DNA of 64,000 bases from Rhodococcus opacus. Lineage in GTDB: Bacteria; Actinomycetota; Actinomycetes; Mycobacteriales; Mycobacteriaceae. This document shows positions 44,106 through 61,807 of this stretch, piece by piece. Location of the stretch: contig NZ_JAAXPA010000004.1 of NCBI RefSeq assembly GCF_012396235.1, positions 124,001 through 188,000 on the forward strand. The letters run 5' to 3'. A program made the translations under genes and the position numbers. The notes under the pieces were generated by a model, which was not told the DNA's origin, did not search any database, and saw nothing but the letters and a program-made list of their open reading frames with translations. Positions within the stretch are counted from its first letter, which is position 1; each line of letters starts with the position of its first letter.

Positions 44106-44900
44106 CTAGCCGAGGTCGCCACCGGCGACGGGCAGTACCGTCCCGGTGATGTAAGTGGCCTCGTCGGAGGCCAGGAAGACGATGGCCGCGGCCTGCTCGT
44201 CCAGCGTTCCGTACCGCTTCAGCAGGGACGAGTCGACGGTCTGGTCGACGATCTGCTGGTACCAGGCCTTCTCCTGATCGGTCTCCGCGCCGGGGCCGCG
44301 GGGAACGCGGCGAGCGGGCGCCTCGGTGCCGCCGGGTGCGGTGGCCACCACGCGGATTCCGTACTGTGCGGCTTCCAGAGCGAGTGACGCGGTCAGGGCG
44401 TTGACCCCGCCCTTCGACGCCGCGTAGGGCACGCGGTTGACACCCCGCGTGGCCACCGAGGACACGTTGACGATGGTGCCCGACTGCTGCGCGATGAGGT
44501 GGGGGAGGACGGCGCGGCACGTCCACAGGGTCGGGAACAGCGACCGCTGCACCTCCGCCTGGATCTGCTCGGCGGTGTAGTGCTCGTACGGCTTGGCCCA
44601 GATGGTGCCGCCGACGTTGTTGATCAGCACGTCGAGTCGGCCGTGCTGCTGCCGCGCCTCGTCGATCGCCGCCTCGGCGTCGGCGAACTGTTCCAGATCG
44701 GCGGTGATGCTGTGCGCGTCGGTGCCGTTCTCGCGCAACCCCTTCGCGACGTCGTGGACGAGTTCGGCGCGGTCGATCAGGATCAGCGACGCACCCTCGG
44801 CCGCGAGTCGGGTCGCGACCGTCAGGCCGATGCCCTGCGCTGCGCCGGTGACCACGACGACCTTGCCGTCGAAACGGTGCGGAGTGACGAGTCCACTCAT
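44106..44900 (-). CDS. benD: cis-1,2-dihydroxybenzoate-diol dehydrogenase
   Basis: 264 residues, a short-chain dehydrogenase. The cofactor motif is VTGAAQGIG, then NNVGG, the catalytic Ser in VNVSSVATRG and the YAASKGG Tyr-Lys pair. In the ben pathway BenD oxidises the non-aromatic cis-diol acid made by BenABC to catechol with loss of CO2, using NAD. The ATG overlaps the benC stop (ATGA), so translation is coupled to the unusual benC-FCD gene. Confidence 0.92.
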   Translation of the reverse strand: MSGLVTPHRFDGKVVVVTGAAQGIGLTVATRLAAEGASLILIDRAELVHDVAKGLRENGTDAHSITADLEQFADAEAAIDEARQQHGRLDVLINNVGGTIWAKPYEHYTAEQIQAEVQRSLFPTLWTCRAVLPHLIAQQSGTIVNVSSVATRGVNRVPYAASKGGVNALTASLALEAAQYGIRVVATAPGGTEAPARRVPRGPGAETDQEKAWYQQIVDQTVDSSLLKRYGTLDEQAAAIVFLASDEATYITGTVLPVAGGDLG

Positions 44901-46435
44901 GCGACGGCACTCCTCTCGATGGCGCGGCACATGGTGGCCTTGGCGTGCGCGCTGTGGCTGACGATCAGGTCGTGGGCGGCGGCCCGGTCACCCTTCTCGA
45001 AGGCGGCGACGATGTCGAGGTGGTCGTGCTGGATGTGCTCGTCCACCCAGTCCGCGGTGCGGAGCACCTTCGTCATGAGCTGCGTGACCTCCAGGCGGTT
45101 GTACGCCTCGAGGAGCACGTCGTTTGCGGTGCACCGGAACAGGAATTCGTGGAATGCGGCGTTGGTGTCGGTAAAGGCGCCTGCGTCCGTGAAGTGGTCG
45201 TTCTCGATCGATTCGCACGAGGTCTCGGCGAGGATCCGGTACTCGGACAGCTGTTCCTTCGTCATCCGGCCGATGGTCAGTTCCATCGCCCCGAGTTCGA
45301 GCGCCATGCGGGCGTCGAACTGCGCGTCCGACTCGGACAGCGGCTGGTGTTCCTCGCCGATCTCGTACTCGGGGGCCGCCTCGACGGCGTTGGCCGCCGA
45401 CGGTGCGGACGCCTCGGACCCACTCGGTGTCGCCGCGTTGTTGAACTTCTCGAAGTAGAAGTTCGCCGGCGTGATGCCCTCCGACTTCAGGTGGTCGCGC
45501 ACCGCCTCGACCATGGGAGGCGGACCGCACAGGTACACGTCCACGTCGCCGTCGTTCAGGTGTGCGGGCTCGAACAGGCCGGTGACGTATCCCTTGTTCG
45601 GTGCACTGCTCGCCGGGTCGGACACGCAGTAGTCGAACGTGAACCGGGGCAGGGACTTCGTGTACTCCTCGAGCTTGTCCAGTTCCACCAGGTCCGCGTC
45701 GGACGAGACTCCGTAGACCAGGTGCACGGGGTGGTCGGCGGCGTCGGTGCGCATCTTGTCGAGGATCGACAGCAGCGGGGCCAGCCCGGTGCCGCCGGCC
45801 AGCAGCAGGGCGCGACGCTTCTGCTCGCGGAGGAAGAAGCTTCCCATCGGGCCGGTGAACTCGAGCGTGTCGCCGACCTGTGCGCGGCTACGCAGGTACT
45901 CCGACATCAGGCCGCCGTCGGTGATCTTGACCAGGAACGACAGTTCCTTCGACGTGGGTCCGGTGCTGAACGAGTACGAGCGCGTCGCTTCGGTCCCGGG
46001 AACGGTGATGTTCACGTACTGGCCGGGGAGGAAAACCAGGTCGTCCCGGTTCGCGATCTCGATCGTGAACCCGATGGTCGTGTCGGAGAACTTACGGATC
46101 TCCGTGACCGTCGACGAGAACGTGCCTGCGGCGGTCTTCGCGACGTCGGACGTCGTCGGGATCTGCAGTACCAAATCGCTTTCCGGCATCATCTGGCACG
46201 GAAGGCAGTAACCCTGCTCCGCCTCTTCGTCGGTGAGCGCTTCCTCGATGTAGTCGCCGCCGTCGTACGTGCCGGATTCGCAGAGCGACTTGCAGGTGCC
46301 GCACGCCCCGTCTCGACAGTCGAGAGGAATGTTGATGCGCGCGCGGTAGGACGCGTCGGCGACCGTCTCGTCGCCGTCACACTTGATGAAGCGGGTGATC
46401 CCGTCCTCGAAACTCAGTGCAACTTGGAAAGTCAT
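44897..46435 (-). CDS. benC: Benzoate dioxygenase reductase fused to an FCD effector domain
   Basis: 512 residues; ordinary BenC proteins are about 340. Residues 1-95 are a plant-type [2Fe-2S] ferredoxin with Cys40, Cys45, Cys48 and Cys80; 105-205 an FAD domain with RSYSFST; 210-331 an NAD domain with GGTGLAPLLS and CGPPPMVEAV. This part passes electrons from NADH to BenAB. After a flexible Ala/Ser/Pro/Glu linker (about 332-363) comes a second module, about 372-505, that matches the FCD domain of GntR/FadR regulators: FHEF (His429), TANDVLLEAY, DHLDIVAAFEKGD (His472) and SHSAH (His494). Three metal-ligand His are kept; the usual Asp is Asn425. The winged helix that precedes FCD in regulators is absent. 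Confidence 0.93.
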   Translation of the reverse strand: MTFQVALSFEDGITRFIKCDGDETVADASYRARINIPLDCRDGACGTCKSLCESGTYDGGDYIEEALTDEEAEQGYCLPCQMMPESDLVLQIPTTSDVAKTAAGTFSSTVTEIRKFSDTTIGFTIEIANRDDLVFLPGQYVNITVPGTEATRSYSFSTGPTSKELSFLVKITDGGLMSEYLRSRAQVGDTLEFTGPMGSFFLREQKRRALLLAGGTGLAPLLSILDKMRTDAADHPVHLVYGVSSDADLVELDKLEEYTKSLPRFTFDYCVSDPASSAPNKGYVTGLFEPAHLNDGDVDVYLCGPPPMVEAVRDHLKSEGITPANFYFEKFNNAATPSGSEASAPSAANAVEAAPEYEIGEEHQPLSESDAQFDARMALELGAMELTIGRMTKEQLSEYRILAETSCESIENDHFTDAGAFTDTNAAFHEFLFRCTANDVLLEAYNRLEVTQLMTKVLRTADWVDEHIQHDHLDIVAAFEKGDRAAAHDLIVSHSAHAKATMCRAIERSAVA

Positions 46436-46471
46436 GGAAAACAGCTCGATTCGCGAAGAATGGGGAAGAAA

Positions 46472-55269: not shown

Positions 55270-56754
55270 TCAGCTCACATAGGAGAAGATCGTCGCCATA
55301 CCGGCGGCAAGGTGATAGTCGTTGTGGCAGTGCGTGATCCATTGACCAGGGTTGGTCGTGTCGATGTCGGCGGCGACGGTCTGCCCGGGGAGCACGATCA
55401 CGGTGTCCTTCCGCGGTCCCGAACCGTCCGACCGGGCGACGGCGAACGTGTGCCCGTGCAGGTGCATGGGGTGGAACATCATCGTGGGGTTCGTATAGAC
55501 CAGCCGCACTCGGTGGTCCCGGTGGACGGTCAGCGGGGTGTGGTCGGGGTAGGCCTTGCCGTTCACCGTCCACACGTACTGCATCATGTGGCCGCCGAGC
55601 GACGCCTCCAGGGTGACACCCGGGTCGACGACGGGTAACCGGACGGCGTCGGTGGCCCGCAAGCCGACCACGGTGAGTGGGGGAGGGCCCACCTCGCGGG
55701 GCGCCACGGCGGGGTCGGGGGCCGCGCCGCCGCCGGTGCGCACCACCGCGAATGCCTGCGCGCCCTTCCCCTCGGCGACCGCGACCAGCGGGAACACCCC
55801 GTCCTGAAGGGTGACGACGGCGTCGTACCGCTCGCCCATGCCGATCAGCACCGAGTCGGTGTCGACCGGTTCGACGGGGAAACCGTCCGTGTCCGTGACG
55901 GTCAGCCGGTGGCCACCCAGCGCGACCCGGAACGCGGTGTCGTCGCCCGCGTTGATCAGCCGGATGCGGGCTCGCCGCCCCGGCCGTGCGGTGAAGACGG
56001 TCGGATCGCCGGGTGGTTTCCCGTTCAGCAGGTACACCGGGTACCGGACGTCGCCGGAGTCACCGCCGAGCACGCGCGACGTCATCTCGGGCATGGACCT
56101 CATGCGCCCGCCGCGGAGTTCGTCGAAGACCTGCGACGGCGTGCGGTCGGTCAACCAGTCGGAGAGCACGACGACGAACTCGGCGTCGTAGTTCGCGGGA
56201 GCCCCGGGATCGTCGATGATCAGAGCCCCGTACAGCCCTCGGCCGCGCTGGAGATCGCCGTGCGTGTGGTACCAGTACGTGCCCGGGTCGGGCGGGATGA
56301 AGTCGTAGACGAACTCTGTGTCCGCCGGTATCGGAGCCTGCGTGACATCCGGGACCCCGTCCATGTCGTTGCGGATGGCCAGCCCGTGCCAGTGCACGGT
56401 GGTGGAATCCGGCAGCTGGTTGCGAAACCGCACCTGGACCCTGTCCCCGACGTTCGCCCGCAGGATCGGGCCTGGCAGCTGCGCGTTGTACAGCCACGCG
56501 GCAGTGCGTTTGCCTGCGAGGTCGACGTCGGACTGCGTCGCGGAGAGCTCGTAGGCGACCGGCCTGCCGCCGGGAAATCGCCGGGACTCGGCCTCGGCGA
56601 ACGCGCGCACCTCCGGGGAGTCGGGTCCGATCGGGGCCTCGGTGTCGTCGGTACGGGCGCAGGCCCCGGTGAGCCCGAGGAGTGCAGCTCCGGCACCCCA
56701 CTGCAGCACACGCCGCCGGGACAACTGCACGTCGAGTGGACGGTTCCCAGGCAC
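55270..56754 (-). CDS. Tat-exported multicopper oxidase (laccase-like), probable lipoprotein
   Basis: 494 residues from a GTG with AAGGAG upstream. The N-terminus has a twin-arginine motif (SRRRVLQ), a hydrophobic stretch and a lipobox-like LTGAC, so the protein is probably exported folded and lipid-anchored. All four copper motifs are present: HWHG, WYHTHGD, FHPMHLHGH and HCHNDYHLAAGM, whose last Met is the likely axial ligand of the type 1 copper. It would oxidise phenols or metal ions (Cu(I), Mn(II)) outside the cell with O2. Sitting in a phenol/guaiacol cluster, it may act on lignin-derived phenols or protect from them; that is inference. Confidence 0.88.
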   Translation of the reverse strand: MPGNRPLDVQLSRRRVLQWGAGAALLGLTGACARTDDTEAPIGPDSPEVRAFAEAESRRFPGGRPVAYELSATQSDVDLAGKRTAAWLYNAQLPGPILRANVGDRVQVRFRNQLPDSTTVHWHGLAIRNDMDGVPDVTQAPIPADTEFVYDFIPPDPGTYWYHTHGDLQRGRGLYGALIIDDPGAPANYDAEFVVVLSDWLTDRTPSQVFDELRGGRMRSMPEMTSRVLGGDSGDVRYPVYLLNGKPPGDPTVFTARPGRRARIRLINAGDDTAFRVALGGHRLTVTDTDGFPVEPVDTDSVLIGMGERYDAVVTLQDGVFPLVAVAEGKGAQAFAVVRTGGGAAPDPAVAPREVGPPPLTVVGLRATDAVRLPVVDPGVTLEASLGGHMMQYVWTVNGKAYPDHTPLTVHRDHRVRLVYTNPTMMFHPMHLHGHTFAVARSDGSGPRKDTVIVLPGQTVAADIDTTNPGQWITHCHNDYHLAAGMATIFSYVS

Positions 56755-56806: not shown

Positions 56807-57754
56807 TTACGCCAGGGCGCCGATTCGAGCCCGGTCGCGGAGGGCGATGAGTTCGCGGGCGTGCGCCTCCAGCTTGCGGTCCTCGTCGGACTGCGGCACC
56901 CACTGCTGCACTGCCGTTGCGGCGCCGTCCTCGTCGACGGCGGCGACGACGGTGAGGCAGTGGGTGGTGAGGTTCATTTCCCGGGTGCGCGGGTCGCCGG
57001 ATCGCACGTGCACCGAGATGTGCATGGTCTGCGCGCCGGTGTGCAGCAGGCGGGCGTCGACCTCGACGACGTGACCGATCTGGATCGGGCGGTAGAAGCG
57101 CACCCCGCCGGCGTACACGGACACGCACGGCGTGCCGTTCCACGACGTGCCGCACAGGTAGGCGGCCTCGTCGATCCAGCGCATCACGGTTCCACCGTGC
57201 GTCTTGCCGCCCCAGTTGACGTCGGTGGGCGCGGCGAGGAAGCGGGTGAGCGATTCCGGTGCGGTGCCCGCGTCGGTGTAGTTCTGCTTGCTCATCGCCT
57301 CTTCGATGTCGGCCCGCAGGCCGATGCGCATGACCGCCTCCTCGGACTCGGCGCGGTCGGTGGCGGTGACGGGCTGCCACGGCGGCACGCTCGTCGGCTT
57401 ACCGGAGTCGTCGACGGCGACGAAGATGATCAGGCAGTTGCTGGCCTCGGTGAACTGTCCGGTGCGCGGGTCGGCCGACGAAACGGTGCACTGGATGTGC
57501 ATGCTCGAGCGCCCGGTGTGGACGAGCCGGGCTTCGACTTCGACGAGGTGACCCGACTCGATGGACCGGGTGAACTTGATGTTTCCCACGTAGGCGGTGA
57601 CGCAGTAGCTCCCGCTCCAGCCGACCGCGCAGGCGTAGGCGGCCTTGTCGATCCATTCGAGGATCCGGCCGCCCTGGACGGCTCCTCCGAGCGTCGCCAC
57701 TTCGGTGGGTGCGGCCAGGAAGCGGAGGGTGATGCTGCGGGGAGGCGTGGTCAT
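56807..57754 (-). CDS. Acyl-CoA thioesterase with two hotdog domains
   Basis: 315 residues in two similar halves of about 150. Each has the BFIT-like hotdog pattern: GGRILEWIDKAAYACA / GGTVMRWIDEAAYLCG and HLVEVEARLVHTGRSSMHI / HVVEVDARLLHTGAQTMHI (quoted in part). It would hydrolyse acyl-CoA; the substrate is unknown. The chosen ATG (MTTPPRS) has CGAGG upstream; the longer reading passes through the divergent promoter region. It lies 52 bases upstream of the multicopper oxidase gene on the same strand. Confidence 0.85.
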   Translation of the reverse strand: MTTPPRSITLRFLAAPTEVATLGGAVQGGRILEWIDKAAYACAVGWSGSYCVTAYVGNIKFTRSIESGHLVEVEARLVHTGRSSMHIQCTVSSADPRTGQFTEASNCLIIFVAVDDSGKPTSVPPWQPVTATDRAESEEAVMRIGLRADIEEAMSKQNYTDAGTAPESLTRFLAAPTDVNWGGKTHGGTVMRWIDEAAYLCGTSWNGTPCVSVYAGGVRFYRPIQIGHVVEVDARLLHTGAQTMHISVHVRSGDPRTREMNLTTHCLTVVAAVDEDGAATAVQQWVPQSDEDRKLEAHARELIALRDRARIGALA

Positions 57755-57895: not shown

Positions 57896-57968
57896 TTGAC
57901 GAACGCATGTGACCACGCGCACACTCGACAACGACCGCACAGCGTTCTCAACGTACGCACAGCGTACG
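57896..57968 (+). promoter_or_regulatory. Catechol-type promoter module of the dioxygenase-like gene
   Basis: In order: TTGACG (57896-57901, a -35-like box), the CRP-like TGTGA-N6-GCACA (57908-57923), a degenerate box GACCGCACAGCGTTC (57933-57947), then the perfect inverted repeat CGTACGC-ACA-GCGTACG (57952-57968). Box centres are 20 bases apart. Every element recurs in the same order and almost the same spacing before catA. It ends 19 bases before the dioxygenase-like start codon. It is the best candidate site for the IclR protein encoded at 58538-59308. Confidence 0.6.
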
Positions 57969-57987: not shown

Positions 57988-58524
57988 ATGACCTCGACGT
58001 CGACGACGACCGCACCTCACGTGGACCAGGCTTGCCTCGACCACGTCGACCGCGAGTTCTACCTTCCCGCGCAGCGAGTGCTGCCGTGGAAGGCGAACCT
58101 TGCGGCACTCCCCGGCGAACCGGGGCCTCCGCTCCGCATCGCGGGGGTCGTGCGCTCACGCGACGGCGCCCCTTTGTCGGGGGCGGAACTCGAGATCTGG
58201 CACGCGGACGCCGACGGCTGCTACTCCGGGTACTCCGTCGAGATTCTGCGCAACAACCTGCGCGGCATCGTCGTCACATGCGCCGGTGGCCGCTTCGACA
58301 TCTCGACCGTGCAGCCGGCGCCGTGCGAATTCTCGAGCGCCCGAGGCGAAGCCGATGTCGGGCACGTCAACGTCGTCGTGCATGCGCGTGGCTTCCGACC
58401 GCTCGAGACGCGCCTGGTGCCGACACCGGGCGCATCGCGAGAAGTGGACGCGTCCGCCGTCGAGTCGCTCGTCGGCCTGGTCGGCGGAGAGGTCTCCTGC
58501 GACTTCGTGCTCGACCCGATCTGA
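57988..58524 (+). CDS. Intradiol-dioxygenase-like protein with a damaged iron site
   Basis: 178 residues; CatA next door has 280. It lacks most of the N-terminal helical dimerisation part and keeps the beta-sandwich: GAELEIWHADADGCYSGYS, LRNNLRG and TVQPAPCEF line up with CatA. Of the four iron ligands in CatA (Tyr162, Tyr196, His220, His222), Tyr79 and His126 remain, but the second Tyr is Cys113 (PAPC) and the second His is Asn128 (GHVNV). Ordinary ring cleavage is therefore doubtful. It could bind catechol-like ligands, use another metal set, or be decaying. The codon use looks normal. It is convergent with the IclR gene (13 bases). Confidence 0.8.
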   Translation: MTSTSTTTAPHVDQACLDHVDREFYLPAQRVLPWKANLAALPGEPGPPLRIAGVVRSRDGAPLSGAELEIWHADADGCYSGYSVEILRNNLRGIVVTCAGGRFDISTVQPAPCEFSSARGEADVGHVNVVVHARGFRPLETRLVPTPGASREVDASAVESLVGLVGGEVSCDFVLDPI

Positions 58525-58537
58525 CCGAGTGATGCCG

Positions 58538-59308
58538 TCAGCCGGCGAAGCCCATGTCCGTGCTCAGGGCGGCCGCGGCGGCGAGGACGCACGGAACGGC
58601 CTGTTCCCGGAACTGTGCCGGAGTATTCCGCGCGGACGACGTGGAGCAGGCGATCACGCCGACCACTGTGCCGCCGGCGTCGCGGACGGGGGCGGCCAGC
58701 GAGATCAGCCCCTTCTCCAGCTCCTCGGACGTCAGGGCGAACCCCTGCTCGCGGACCTTGGTGAGTTCCTTGTCGAGTTCGGCTGCAGTGCTGATGGTTT
58801 CGGGCCCGAGTTTCTCGAACGTGGACTCGGCGACCACCTGCTCGACCACGTCGGCGGGGGCCCAGGCCAGGAGCGCGCGACCCATGGACGTGGCGTACGC
58901 GGGGACGCGGGTGCCGACAGAGACGTTGATGCTCATGATCCGCCGGACGGGAACGCGCGCCGCGTAGACCACGTCGGCGCCGTCGAGCACGCCGAGCGAC
59001 GCGGACTCCTGGGTCTTCTCGGCCACCTCCAGCAGTCGGGGCATCGCGGCCTCGATCAGTGCGTGCGACTCCGAGTAGTGCTGTCCGATGCTCAGCACGC
59101 GGGGGGTGAGCGACCATCGGCCACCCGAGCCGGCGACGTACCCCAGCTTCTGCAGGGTGAGCAGGATCCGGCGGACTGCGGGGCGCGACAGTCCCGCTTC
59201 TGTGGCGAGTTCGGCGAGCGTCGGGTTCGGACGCTGCGCGTCGAACGCGAGGAGCACTGCGAACCCGCGCTCGATGCTCTGGATGTAATCGCGATCGCTC
59301 TCGGTCAT
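58538..59308 (-). CDS. catR: IclR-family regulator of the catechol genes
   Basis: 256 residues. An N-terminal winged helix (LAELATEAGLSRPAVRRILLTL in part) is followed by the IclR effector domain (TSMGRALLAW, EELEKGLISLAAPVRD). It is divergent from catABC, the normal place for rhodococcal CatR, and its likely sites are the paired GTACGC-N3-GCGTAC boxes before catA and the dioxygenase-like gene. Muconate or a similar intermediate is the probable ligand. The ATG chosen has GGAGG 6 bases upstream. Whether it represses or activates cannot be read from sequence, though boxes near the expected start of transcription favour repression. Confidence 0.88.
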   Translation of the reverse strand: MTESDRDYIQSIERGFAVLLAFDAQRPNPTLAELATEAGLSRPAVRRILLTLQKLGYVAGSGGRWSLTPRVLSIGQHYSESHALIEAAMPRLLEVAEKTQESASLGVLDGADVVYAARVPVRRIMSINVSVGTRVPAYATSMGRALLAWAPADVVEQVVAESTFEKLGPETISTAAELDKELTKVREQGFALTSEELEKGLISLAAPVRDAGGTVVGVIACSTSSARNTPAQFREQAVPCVLAAAAALSTDMGFAG

Positions 59309-59351
59309 TGCGGCCTCCATCAGCGATTCGGGTGCGTATTCGGACTTGGGG

Positions 59352-59422
59352 TTGACATTTCAATGTGACTGCGCGCACAGTAGTGGTGTACGCACAGCGT
59401 GATGCTAGTACGCAGAGCGTAC
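59352..59422 (+). promoter_or_regulatory. catA promoter/operator module
   Basis: A consensus -35, TTGACA (59352-59357), is followed by the CRP-like TGTGACTGCGCGCACA (59364-59379) and two boxes: GTACGCACAGCGTGA (59388-59402) and GTACGCAGAGCGTAC (59408-59422), whose centres are 20 bases apart. The second is a perfect inverted repeat. No good -10 follows the -35 at 17 bases; CACAGT at 18 is the nearest. The boxes would lie near and after the start of transcription, fitting repression by CatR. The catA ATG is 94 bases after the last box. Confidence 0.65.
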
Positions 59423-59447: not shown

Positions 59448-60359
<912 letters not shown>

Positions 60360-60388: not shown

Positions 60389-61510
60389 ATGACCGACCTG
60401 TCGATCGTTTCCGTCGAAACGACGATCCTCGATGTGCCGTTGGTGCGTCCCCACAAGTTCGCCACCACGTCGATGACGGCGCAGCCGCTGCTGCTCGTCG
60501 CCGTCACGACCGCGGGCGGCGTGACCGGTTACGGCGAGGGCGTCGTCCCCGGCGGCCCGTGGTGGGGCGGCGAATCGGTGGAGACGATGCAGGCGATCGT
60601 CGAGCGGTACATAGTCCCGGTCCTGCTGGGGCGTGGTGTCGACGAGATCACCGGCATCATGCCGGACATCGAACGAGTCGTCGCCAATGCACGTTTCGCG
60701 AAAGCCGCCGTCGACGTCGCGTTGCACGACGCCTGGGCTCGCAGCCTGGGTGTGCCCGTGCACACGCTGCTCGGCGGCGCCTTCCGAAAGAGTGTCGACG
60801 TCACGTGGGCCCTCGGCGCCGCACCCGCCGAGGAGATCATCGAGGAGGCCCTCGATCTCGTCGAGTCGAAGCGGCACTTCAGTTTCAAGTTGAAGATGGG
60901 TGCGCTCGATCCCGCCGTCGACACTGCCCGGGTGGTTCGGATCGCGCAGGCCCTGCAGGGCAAGGCCGGCGTCCGCATCGACGTCAACGCCCGCTGGGAC
61001 AGGCTCACCGCGCTGAAGTACGTGCCCCGCCTCGTCGACGGCGGCGTCGAACTGATCGAGCAGCCCACACCCGGTGAGCAACTCGAGGTCCTCGCCGAGC
61101 TCAACCGACTCGTCCCCGTCCCGGTGATGGCGGACGAGAGCGTGCAGACTCCGCACGACGCCCTCGAGGTCGCACGCCGCGGCGCCGCGGACGTCATCGC
61201 CCTCAAGACCACCAAATGTGGCGGCCTGCAGAAGAGCCGCGAGGTGGTCGCAATCGCCAAGGCAGCCGGAATCGCCTGCCACGGAGCCACGTCCATCGAA
61301 GGCCCGATCGGGACGGCGGCGTCCGTCCACTTCGCGTGCGCGGAACCCGGCATCGACTTCGGTACCGAACTGTTCGGACCGCTGCTGTTCAGCGAGGAGT
61401 TGCTGCAGGAACCGATCCGCTACGCCGACGGCCAGGTGTTCCTGCCCGAGGGGCCCGGACTCGGAGTCGAGCTCAACATGGACGCAGTCAAGACCTGGAC
61501 CAGGAACTAA
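60389..61510 (+). CDS. catB: Muconate cycloisomerase
   Basis: 373 residues, enolase superfamily. Visible are the KLKMG Lys motif, the metal-binding Asp/Glu positions (RIDVNARWD, ELIEQPT, ADES) and the KTTKCGG segment. It turns cis,cis-muconate into muconolactone using Mn2+. The ATG (MTDLSIVS) is preferred over one 11 codons earlier that overlaps the catA stop. It lies 29 bases after catA and 15 before catC. Confidence 0.94.
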   Translation: MTDLSIVSVETTILDVPLVRPHKFATTSMTAQPLLLVAVTTAGGVTGYGEGVVPGGPWWGGESVETMQAIVERYIVPVLLGRGVDEITGIMPDIERVVANARFAKAAVDVALHDAWARSLGVPVHTLLGGAFRKSVDVTWALGAAPAEEIIEEALDLVESKRHFSFKLKMGALDPAVDTARVVRIAQALQGKAGVRIDVNARWDRLTALKYVPRLVDGGVELIEQPTPGEQLEVLAELNRLVPVPVMADESVQTPHDALEVARRGAADVIALKTTKCGGLQKSREVVAIAKAAGIACHGATSIEGPIGTAASVHFACAEPGIDFGTELFGPLLFSEELLQEPIRYADGQVFLPEGPGLGVELNMDAVKTWTRN

Positions 61511-61525
61511 GGAGCACACCACCCG

Positions 61526-61807
61526 ATGGCACTCTTTCACGTCCGCATGGACGTCGCCATTCCCCGTGACCTCGACCCGAAGGTGCGGGACGAGACCATC
61601 GCCAAGGAGAAGGCGTACTCACAGGAGCTCCAACGCTCCGGCAAGTGGCCCGAGATCTGGCGCATCGTGGGGCAGTACAGCAACATCAGCATCTTCGACG
61701 TCGAGTCGGCCGACGAACTGCACGAGATCCTGTGGAACCTTCCACTGTTCCCGTACATGAACATCGAGATCATGCCGCTCACCAAGCACGGTTCCGACGT
61801 CAAATAG
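61526..61807 (+). CDS. catC: Muconolactone delta-isomerase
   Basis: 93 residues, the normal length of this small decameric enzyme. The N-terminus MALFHVRMDVAIPRDL and the late LWNLPLFPYMNIEIMPLTKH are typical of CatC. It converts muconolactone to 3-oxoadipate enol-lactone. It ends the cat operon; the pca genes for the following steps are not in the window. Confidence 0.95.
   Translation: MALFHVRMDVAIPRDLDPKVRDETIAKEKAYSQELQRSGKWPEIWRIVGQYSNISIFDVESADELHEILWNLPLFPYMNIEIMPLTKHGSDVK

Follow-up and report, generated by a model that had tools for sequence, protein, structure and literature searches.

By its gene content, the analysed window, a stretch of 64,000 nucleotides from Rhodococcus opacus, is an aromatic-degradation superlocus. 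It contains benA- and benC-type genes, a P450 with its reductase, two AraC-type regulators and an HpaB-type hydroxylase with a flavin reductase, followed by genes for a multicopper oxidase, a thioesterase, the ORF analyzed here (57988–58524, plus strand), catR, catABC and a ROK protein. The ORF is convergent with catR (58538–59320, minus strand), which encodes an IclR-type regulator; what its counterpart does in R. opacus PD630 is described in PMC9582017. Beyond catR, all on the plus strand, lie catA (59517–60359), encoding an active-type catechol 1,2-dioxygenase with all four iron ligands present, catB (60389–61510, muconate cycloisomerase) and catC (61526–61807, muconolactone isomerase). On its other side the ORF faces, across 233 bp, a divergent gene for a double-hotdog (4HBT) thioesterase (56807–57754, minus strand). 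The multicopper oxidase gene (55273–56754, minus strand), flanked by the AraC and thioesterase genes, was present in most relatives read and missing from genome G009 (locus L055). The gene order appears to match the PD630 loci catR (LPD06569), pheR2 (LPD06574) and pheB2 (LPD06575); guessed in the same way, the counterparts of the ORF are likely ro02371 and LPD06570, two tags of which no mention was found in open-licence papers.

The ORF starts with ATG and encodes 178 amino acids. Its frame is open, as stated in the initial annotation, which had also placed its product alongside the catalytic half of CatA and noted the missing N-terminal dimer domain. Both statements are borne out by the Pfam search: the protein matches Dioxygenase_C (PF00775, E=9.8e-15), and Dioxygenase_N (PF04444, the N-terminal helical dimerisation domain) is absent from it, whereas the adjoining CatA has both domains. 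No DNA-binding or signalling domain was found by Pfam. The closest homologue within the genome is CatA itself, encoded 1 kb downstream (33% identity, E=2.7e-16). The best NCBIfam model is that of actinobacterial CatA (TIGR02438), which matches residues 20–117 only, with 72 bits against a cut-off of 404; the PcaG model (TIGR02423) gives 34 bits, with a cut-off of 126. A PF00775 search of the genome returned five loci, which we read as CatA, PcaH, PcaG, the ORF itself and, as the fifth, a protein without assigned identity that matches over a short stretch. The normal codon use claimed earlier for the ORF holds roughly: its GC3 is 0.85, but its codon adaptation to the neighbours (0.65) is the lowest of nine genes, with the AraC gene close to it (0.67).

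The iron of R. opacus 1CP CatA is bound by Tyr162, Tyr196, His220 and His222, and intradiol enzymes have an axial and an equatorial residue of each type, Tyr and His (PMC3656225). The CatA of the window has Y162, Y196, R217, H220, H222 and Q236 at the expected numbering. Alignment of the ORF product to R. opacus CatA shows Tyr79 at the position of Tyr162 and His126 at that of His220, while Cys113 takes the place of Tyr196 and Asn128 that of His222, the same two substitutions that had been recognized in the initial annotation. We take Tyr196/His222 to be the axial pair of CatA, corresponding to Tyr447/His462 in PCD; with this assignment, which comes from family knowledge, the equatorial positions are the ones retained and both axial iron ligands would be replaced. 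The 2-Tyr 2-His ligand set is thus incomplete. The alignment further revealed two changes that the initial annotation had not mentioned: the loop bearing Arg217 of CatA is shorter by about 11–14 residues, Arg217 itself being gone, and Gln236 is replaced by Arg142. Loss of catechol cleavage is likely. A single ligand change need not kill the enzyme, since the CatA of Stenotrophomonas maltophilia, in which Gln is predicted at one of the His positions, is active (PMC3656225) and a PCD double mutant with swapped axial ligands retains intradiol chemistry, as indicated by PDB titles. Cysteines 78, 98, 113 and 171 are invariant across 11 orthologues, and the CatA of the window has Tyr where 78, 113 and 171 align; a metal or disulfide role of the four cysteines is possible.

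A further point not raised in the initial annotation is that the altered site resembles that of PcaG; in protocatechuate 3,4-dioxygenase, PcaG is the alpha subunit and is non-catalytic. The combination of H-x-N/D and TR was observed in 13/13 PcaG sequences fetched, and the ORF product has H-x-N and TR, whereas CatA and PcaH have H-x-H and TQ or AQ at those positions; the short loop and the ARG motif are also common to the ORF product and the displayed PcaG rows. With PcaG (TIGR02423; PDB 2pcd_A, 1eo2_A) the ORF product furthermore shares the lack of the N-terminal domain, but it retains the first Tyr, which PcaG does not have, and no PcaH-like partner gene lies beside it. With CatA (R. opacus 1CP, PDB 3hgi/3hhy; TIGR02438) it shares the fold of the catalytic domain, the WHADADG.YS and PAP motifs, the first Tyr and the first His ligand, the promoter type and the genomic locus; it differs in the missing helical dimer domain, in the changes Tyr196 to Cys, His222 to Asn and Gln236 to Arg, and in the deleted Arg217 loop. 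Short single-domain intradiol dioxygenases (SACTE_2871, 4ilt; a phage enzyme, 9yh9), whose entries are titled dioxygenases, likewise consist of a lone beta-sandwich without the CatA helical domain, but are less like the ORF product in sequence and fold than CatA is.

Descent from PcaG was considered and rejected. In a maximum-likelihood tree of 82 domains the ORF clade (100/100) is nested within actinobacterial CatA, beside the CatA of other actinobacterial families (99/93), and PcaG and PcaH are set apart from CatA and the ORF at 100/100. Because the ORF clade sits on a long stem (1.91), which CatA is its nearest neighbour is uncertain. In the stretch of residues 118–145 the mean identity of the ORF product is 33% to PcaG vs 25% to CatA; because the tree excludes PcaG descent, we read this PcaG-like stretch as convergence, a short gene-conversion tract being possible as well. 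Two AlphaFold models (pTM 0.70 and 0.72) show a beta-sandwich, with pLDDT below 50 at residues 75–86 in the first model and at residues 81–89 and 117–120 in the second one. The best solved match is R. opacus CatA (Z 15.7, rmsd 3.9, 142 residues), followed by other CatA-type enzymes, while PcaG chains have Z of 10.8–12.1; Foldseek agrees with the CatA-type best match.

Upstream of the ORF, two CatR-type boxes that the initial annotation had not mentioned (GACCGCACAGCGTTC, 57933–57947, and GTACGCACAGCGTAC, 57953–57967, plus strand) are conserved in all 11 orthologues; in locus L004 the second box is inside an alternative upstream start. Boxes of the GTACGCACAGCGTAC type, also 20 bp apart and in the same register, precede catA (59388–59402 and 59408–59422, plus strand). 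The tandem-box pattern has exactly two sites in the 8.1-Mb genome, before the ORF and before catA, whereas the reversed control pattern has zero sites in the whole genome. Among 28 Rhodococcus genomes, those carrying the ORF have two sites and those lacking it one or none, with three exceptions among the carriers: one site each in G016, which is a fragmented genome, and G024, where the catA box has a mismatch, and three in G004 (R. jostii NBRC 16295), the extra site lying by a second catA.

The similarity of the two promoters extends further upstream. A module TTGAC-N7-TGTGACCACGCGCACA before the ORF (57896–57923, plus strand) is matched by TTGAC-N7-TGTGACTGCGCGCACA before catA (59352–59379, plus strand), and the pattern occurs exactly twice in the genome. 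Written out as TTGAC-N7-TGTGAC-N2-CGCGCACA, this stretch upstream of the boxes matches the catA promoter to a degree equalled by 0/2000 mononucleotide shuffles. Hence, of the strong promoter claimed in the initial annotation, the presence of a catA-like promoter sequence is what stands. Both modules include TGTGA-N6-GCACA (57908–57923 and 59364–59379), which lies 24 vs 25 bp from box 1 of the respective promoter and suggests a second regulator common to both promoters; it presumably resembles a CRP/GlxR site. CatR represses PcatA in R. opacus PD630, with cis,cis-muconate as the likely effector (PMC9582017), and we assign the predicted boxes to CatR because the published account puts an IclR-type site in the catR–catA region. 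Judged from these sequence matches, co-regulation of the ORF with catA is well supported, and CatR probably acts on the boxes of the ORF promoter. Together with the tree, the shared promoter fits an origin of the ORF by duplication of a catA gene along with its promoter; alternatively, the promoter may have been captured by a foreign catA copy.

Intact orthologues of the ORF were found in 11 of the 28 Rhodococcus species genomes, large-genome species that carry it beside catechol-degrading genes, the other ten proteins being 81–94% identical to the one studied here. In all loci whose context was read, the orthologue is located between the thioesterase gene and catR. The thioesterase gene was present in 11/11 ORF-bearing species, and elsewhere only one was seen, a 64% homologue in G020. 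In four Rhodococcus genomes without the ORF, catR adjoins the AraC gene directly, whereas in ORF-bearing loci the thioesterase gene and the ORF, usually together with the multicopper oxidase gene, stand between them. Outside Rhodococcus, no orthologue was found by peptide patterns in 84,980 species, nor in the family, the order and the phylum, where an orthologue profile was run against about 400 genomes at each level; the weaker profile matches, where read, were CatA with intact ligands.

The initial annotation would have been refuted by random substitutions at the changed ligand positions in homologues, and none was seen: Tyr79, Cys113, His126, Asn128 and Arg142 are invariant in 11/11 orthologues. 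The core (residues 17–117) is mostly invariant, so that invariance within it says little alone; in the region 118–145, 12 of 28 columns are invariant, H126, N128 and R142 among them. The codon of Cys113 varies synonymously between TGC and TGT and that of Arg142 between CGC, CGG and AGG, which points to selection on these residues, whereas Asn128 is encoded by AAC throughout and is uninformative in this respect. The overall dN/dS of the ORF is 0.19, compared with 0.07 for catA and 0.08 for catR; taken by region, the core stands at 0.10 and the C-terminal part (residues 146–178), which is shortened in one species, at 0.48. Since the 11 orthologues form a single clade of limited divergence, the independent evidence drawn from invariance is limited; nevertheless, purifying selection on the ORF is well supported by these substitution patterns. 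The earlier remark that simple decay is not obvious agrees with these ratios.

An appearance of genuine decay is provided by R. jostii NBRC 16295, whose second cat copy (contig C149, locus L088, 2688–4200) has an intact catA, 98.6% identical, along with catR and the ORF as broken fragments; the main copy is unlike it. This comparison bears on the possibility that the ORF is a relic of catA duplication that is passively kept. Its dN/dS above those of catA and catR and its loose, in one species shortened, C-terminal part would suit a relic, but the ORF and its operator are intact in 11 species, the core is constrained, and the true relic is a shattered fragment. We rejected a pseudogene as the main reading on the grounds of intactness, core dN/dS and the retained operator, and we consider a passive relic very unlikely.

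Conserved, deprived of half of the iron ligands and placed behind the same type of switch, the ORF probably encodes a helper or binding protein rather than being a dead gene or encoding a normal enzyme. The sequences indicate its origin, the sharing of the promoter, the ligand changes and the selection; the partner or binding role is our interpretation of them. The explanation we favour, at roughly even chances, is that the ORF encodes a CatA-derived, CatR-regulated pseudoenzyme, most likely a non-cleaving accessory of the catechol branch, either a PcaG-like partner or a ligand binder. In this scheme a catechol 1,2-dioxygenase gene would have given rise to the ORF with its catA-type promoter and CatR boxes, and in the protein the N-terminal dimer domain would have disappeared, as would the Arg loop that grips the substrate and both axial ligands, leaving the beta-sandwich and a pocket with conserved Tyr79, Cys113, His126, Asn128 and Arg142. 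Build-up of cis,cis-muconate would derepress the ORF along with catABC, and the protein would then dock on CatA as PcaG does on PcaH, or hold catechol or muconate in its vestigial pocket, modulating flux or stability. A non-catalytic partner is preferred mainly because of the PcaG-like site pattern. To our knowledge, R. opacus CatA was crystallised without any partner protein, which counts against a partner. The more specific proposal that CatA gave rise independently to a counterpart of PcaG, with the ORF product as a dead paralogue joining CatA in a heteromeric catechol 1,2-dioxygenase, so that the subunit split would have arisen twice, is tentative and rather unlikely.

The initial annotation had offered a catechol sensor, a CatA partner and an enzyme with altered metal chemistry; all three keep some probability, with a role as partner or binder favoured by the operator of CatR type and by the likeness of the site to that of PcaG. 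An enzyme that holds Fe, Cu or Zn through Tyr79, His126, Cys113 and maybe Asn128, and that acts on catechol, one of its derivatives or a product of the muconate type, would account for the retained equatorial positions, the purifying selection on Cys113 seen in its synonymous codons and the four invariant cysteines, and the intradiol chemistry of the axial-ligand-swapped PCD mutants shows a precedent. However, the loop with Arg217 is gone and Gln236 has become Arg, the H-x-N/D and TR state also marks the non-catalytic PcaG, and the model is least certain at residues 81–89 and 117–120, so that the site geometry is not judgeable; we regard such an enzyme as unlikely. The protein might also bind or buffer catechol, muconate or a metal on its own, protecting the cell or tuning CatR signalling without touching CatA, but this seems similarly improbable: the conserved vestigial pocket, the CatR-type operator and a locus that brings catechol genes together with genes of the benzoate, phenol and guaiacol type speak for it, while the lack of a recognizable DNA-binding or signalling domain speaks against it.

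Pseudoenzymes and non-catalytic intradiol domains are already known kinds; in the open-licence literature we found no CatA-derived non-catalytic intradiol protein behind a CatR-type operator, and no expression, binding or activity data for the ORF. What is new here is the copy of the catA promoter before the ORF, the PcaG-like site state within the CatA lineage and the co-occurrence with the divergent thioesterase gene. Rhodococcus CatA serves as a model in work on muconic acid production and on lignin conversion, and next to its gene lies that of a conserved protein with the same fold, apparently under CatR control, of which open-licence papers made no mention that we could find. Should this protein modulate CatA or be a binder of catechol or muconate, a pathway regarded as complete would turn out to lack a part; a heteromer with CatA would be a second origin of the division into catalytic and non-catalytic subunits known from protocatechuate 3,4-dioxygenase. 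The CatA3 of R. opacus 1CP (PMC13101518) looks like the product of a different locus. Elsewhere in the superlocus, the benC-type frame (44900–46471, minus strand) is unusual in its domain combination, since residues 385–506 of the open frame, at the C-terminal end, also make up an FCD (GntR-type ligand-binding) domain.
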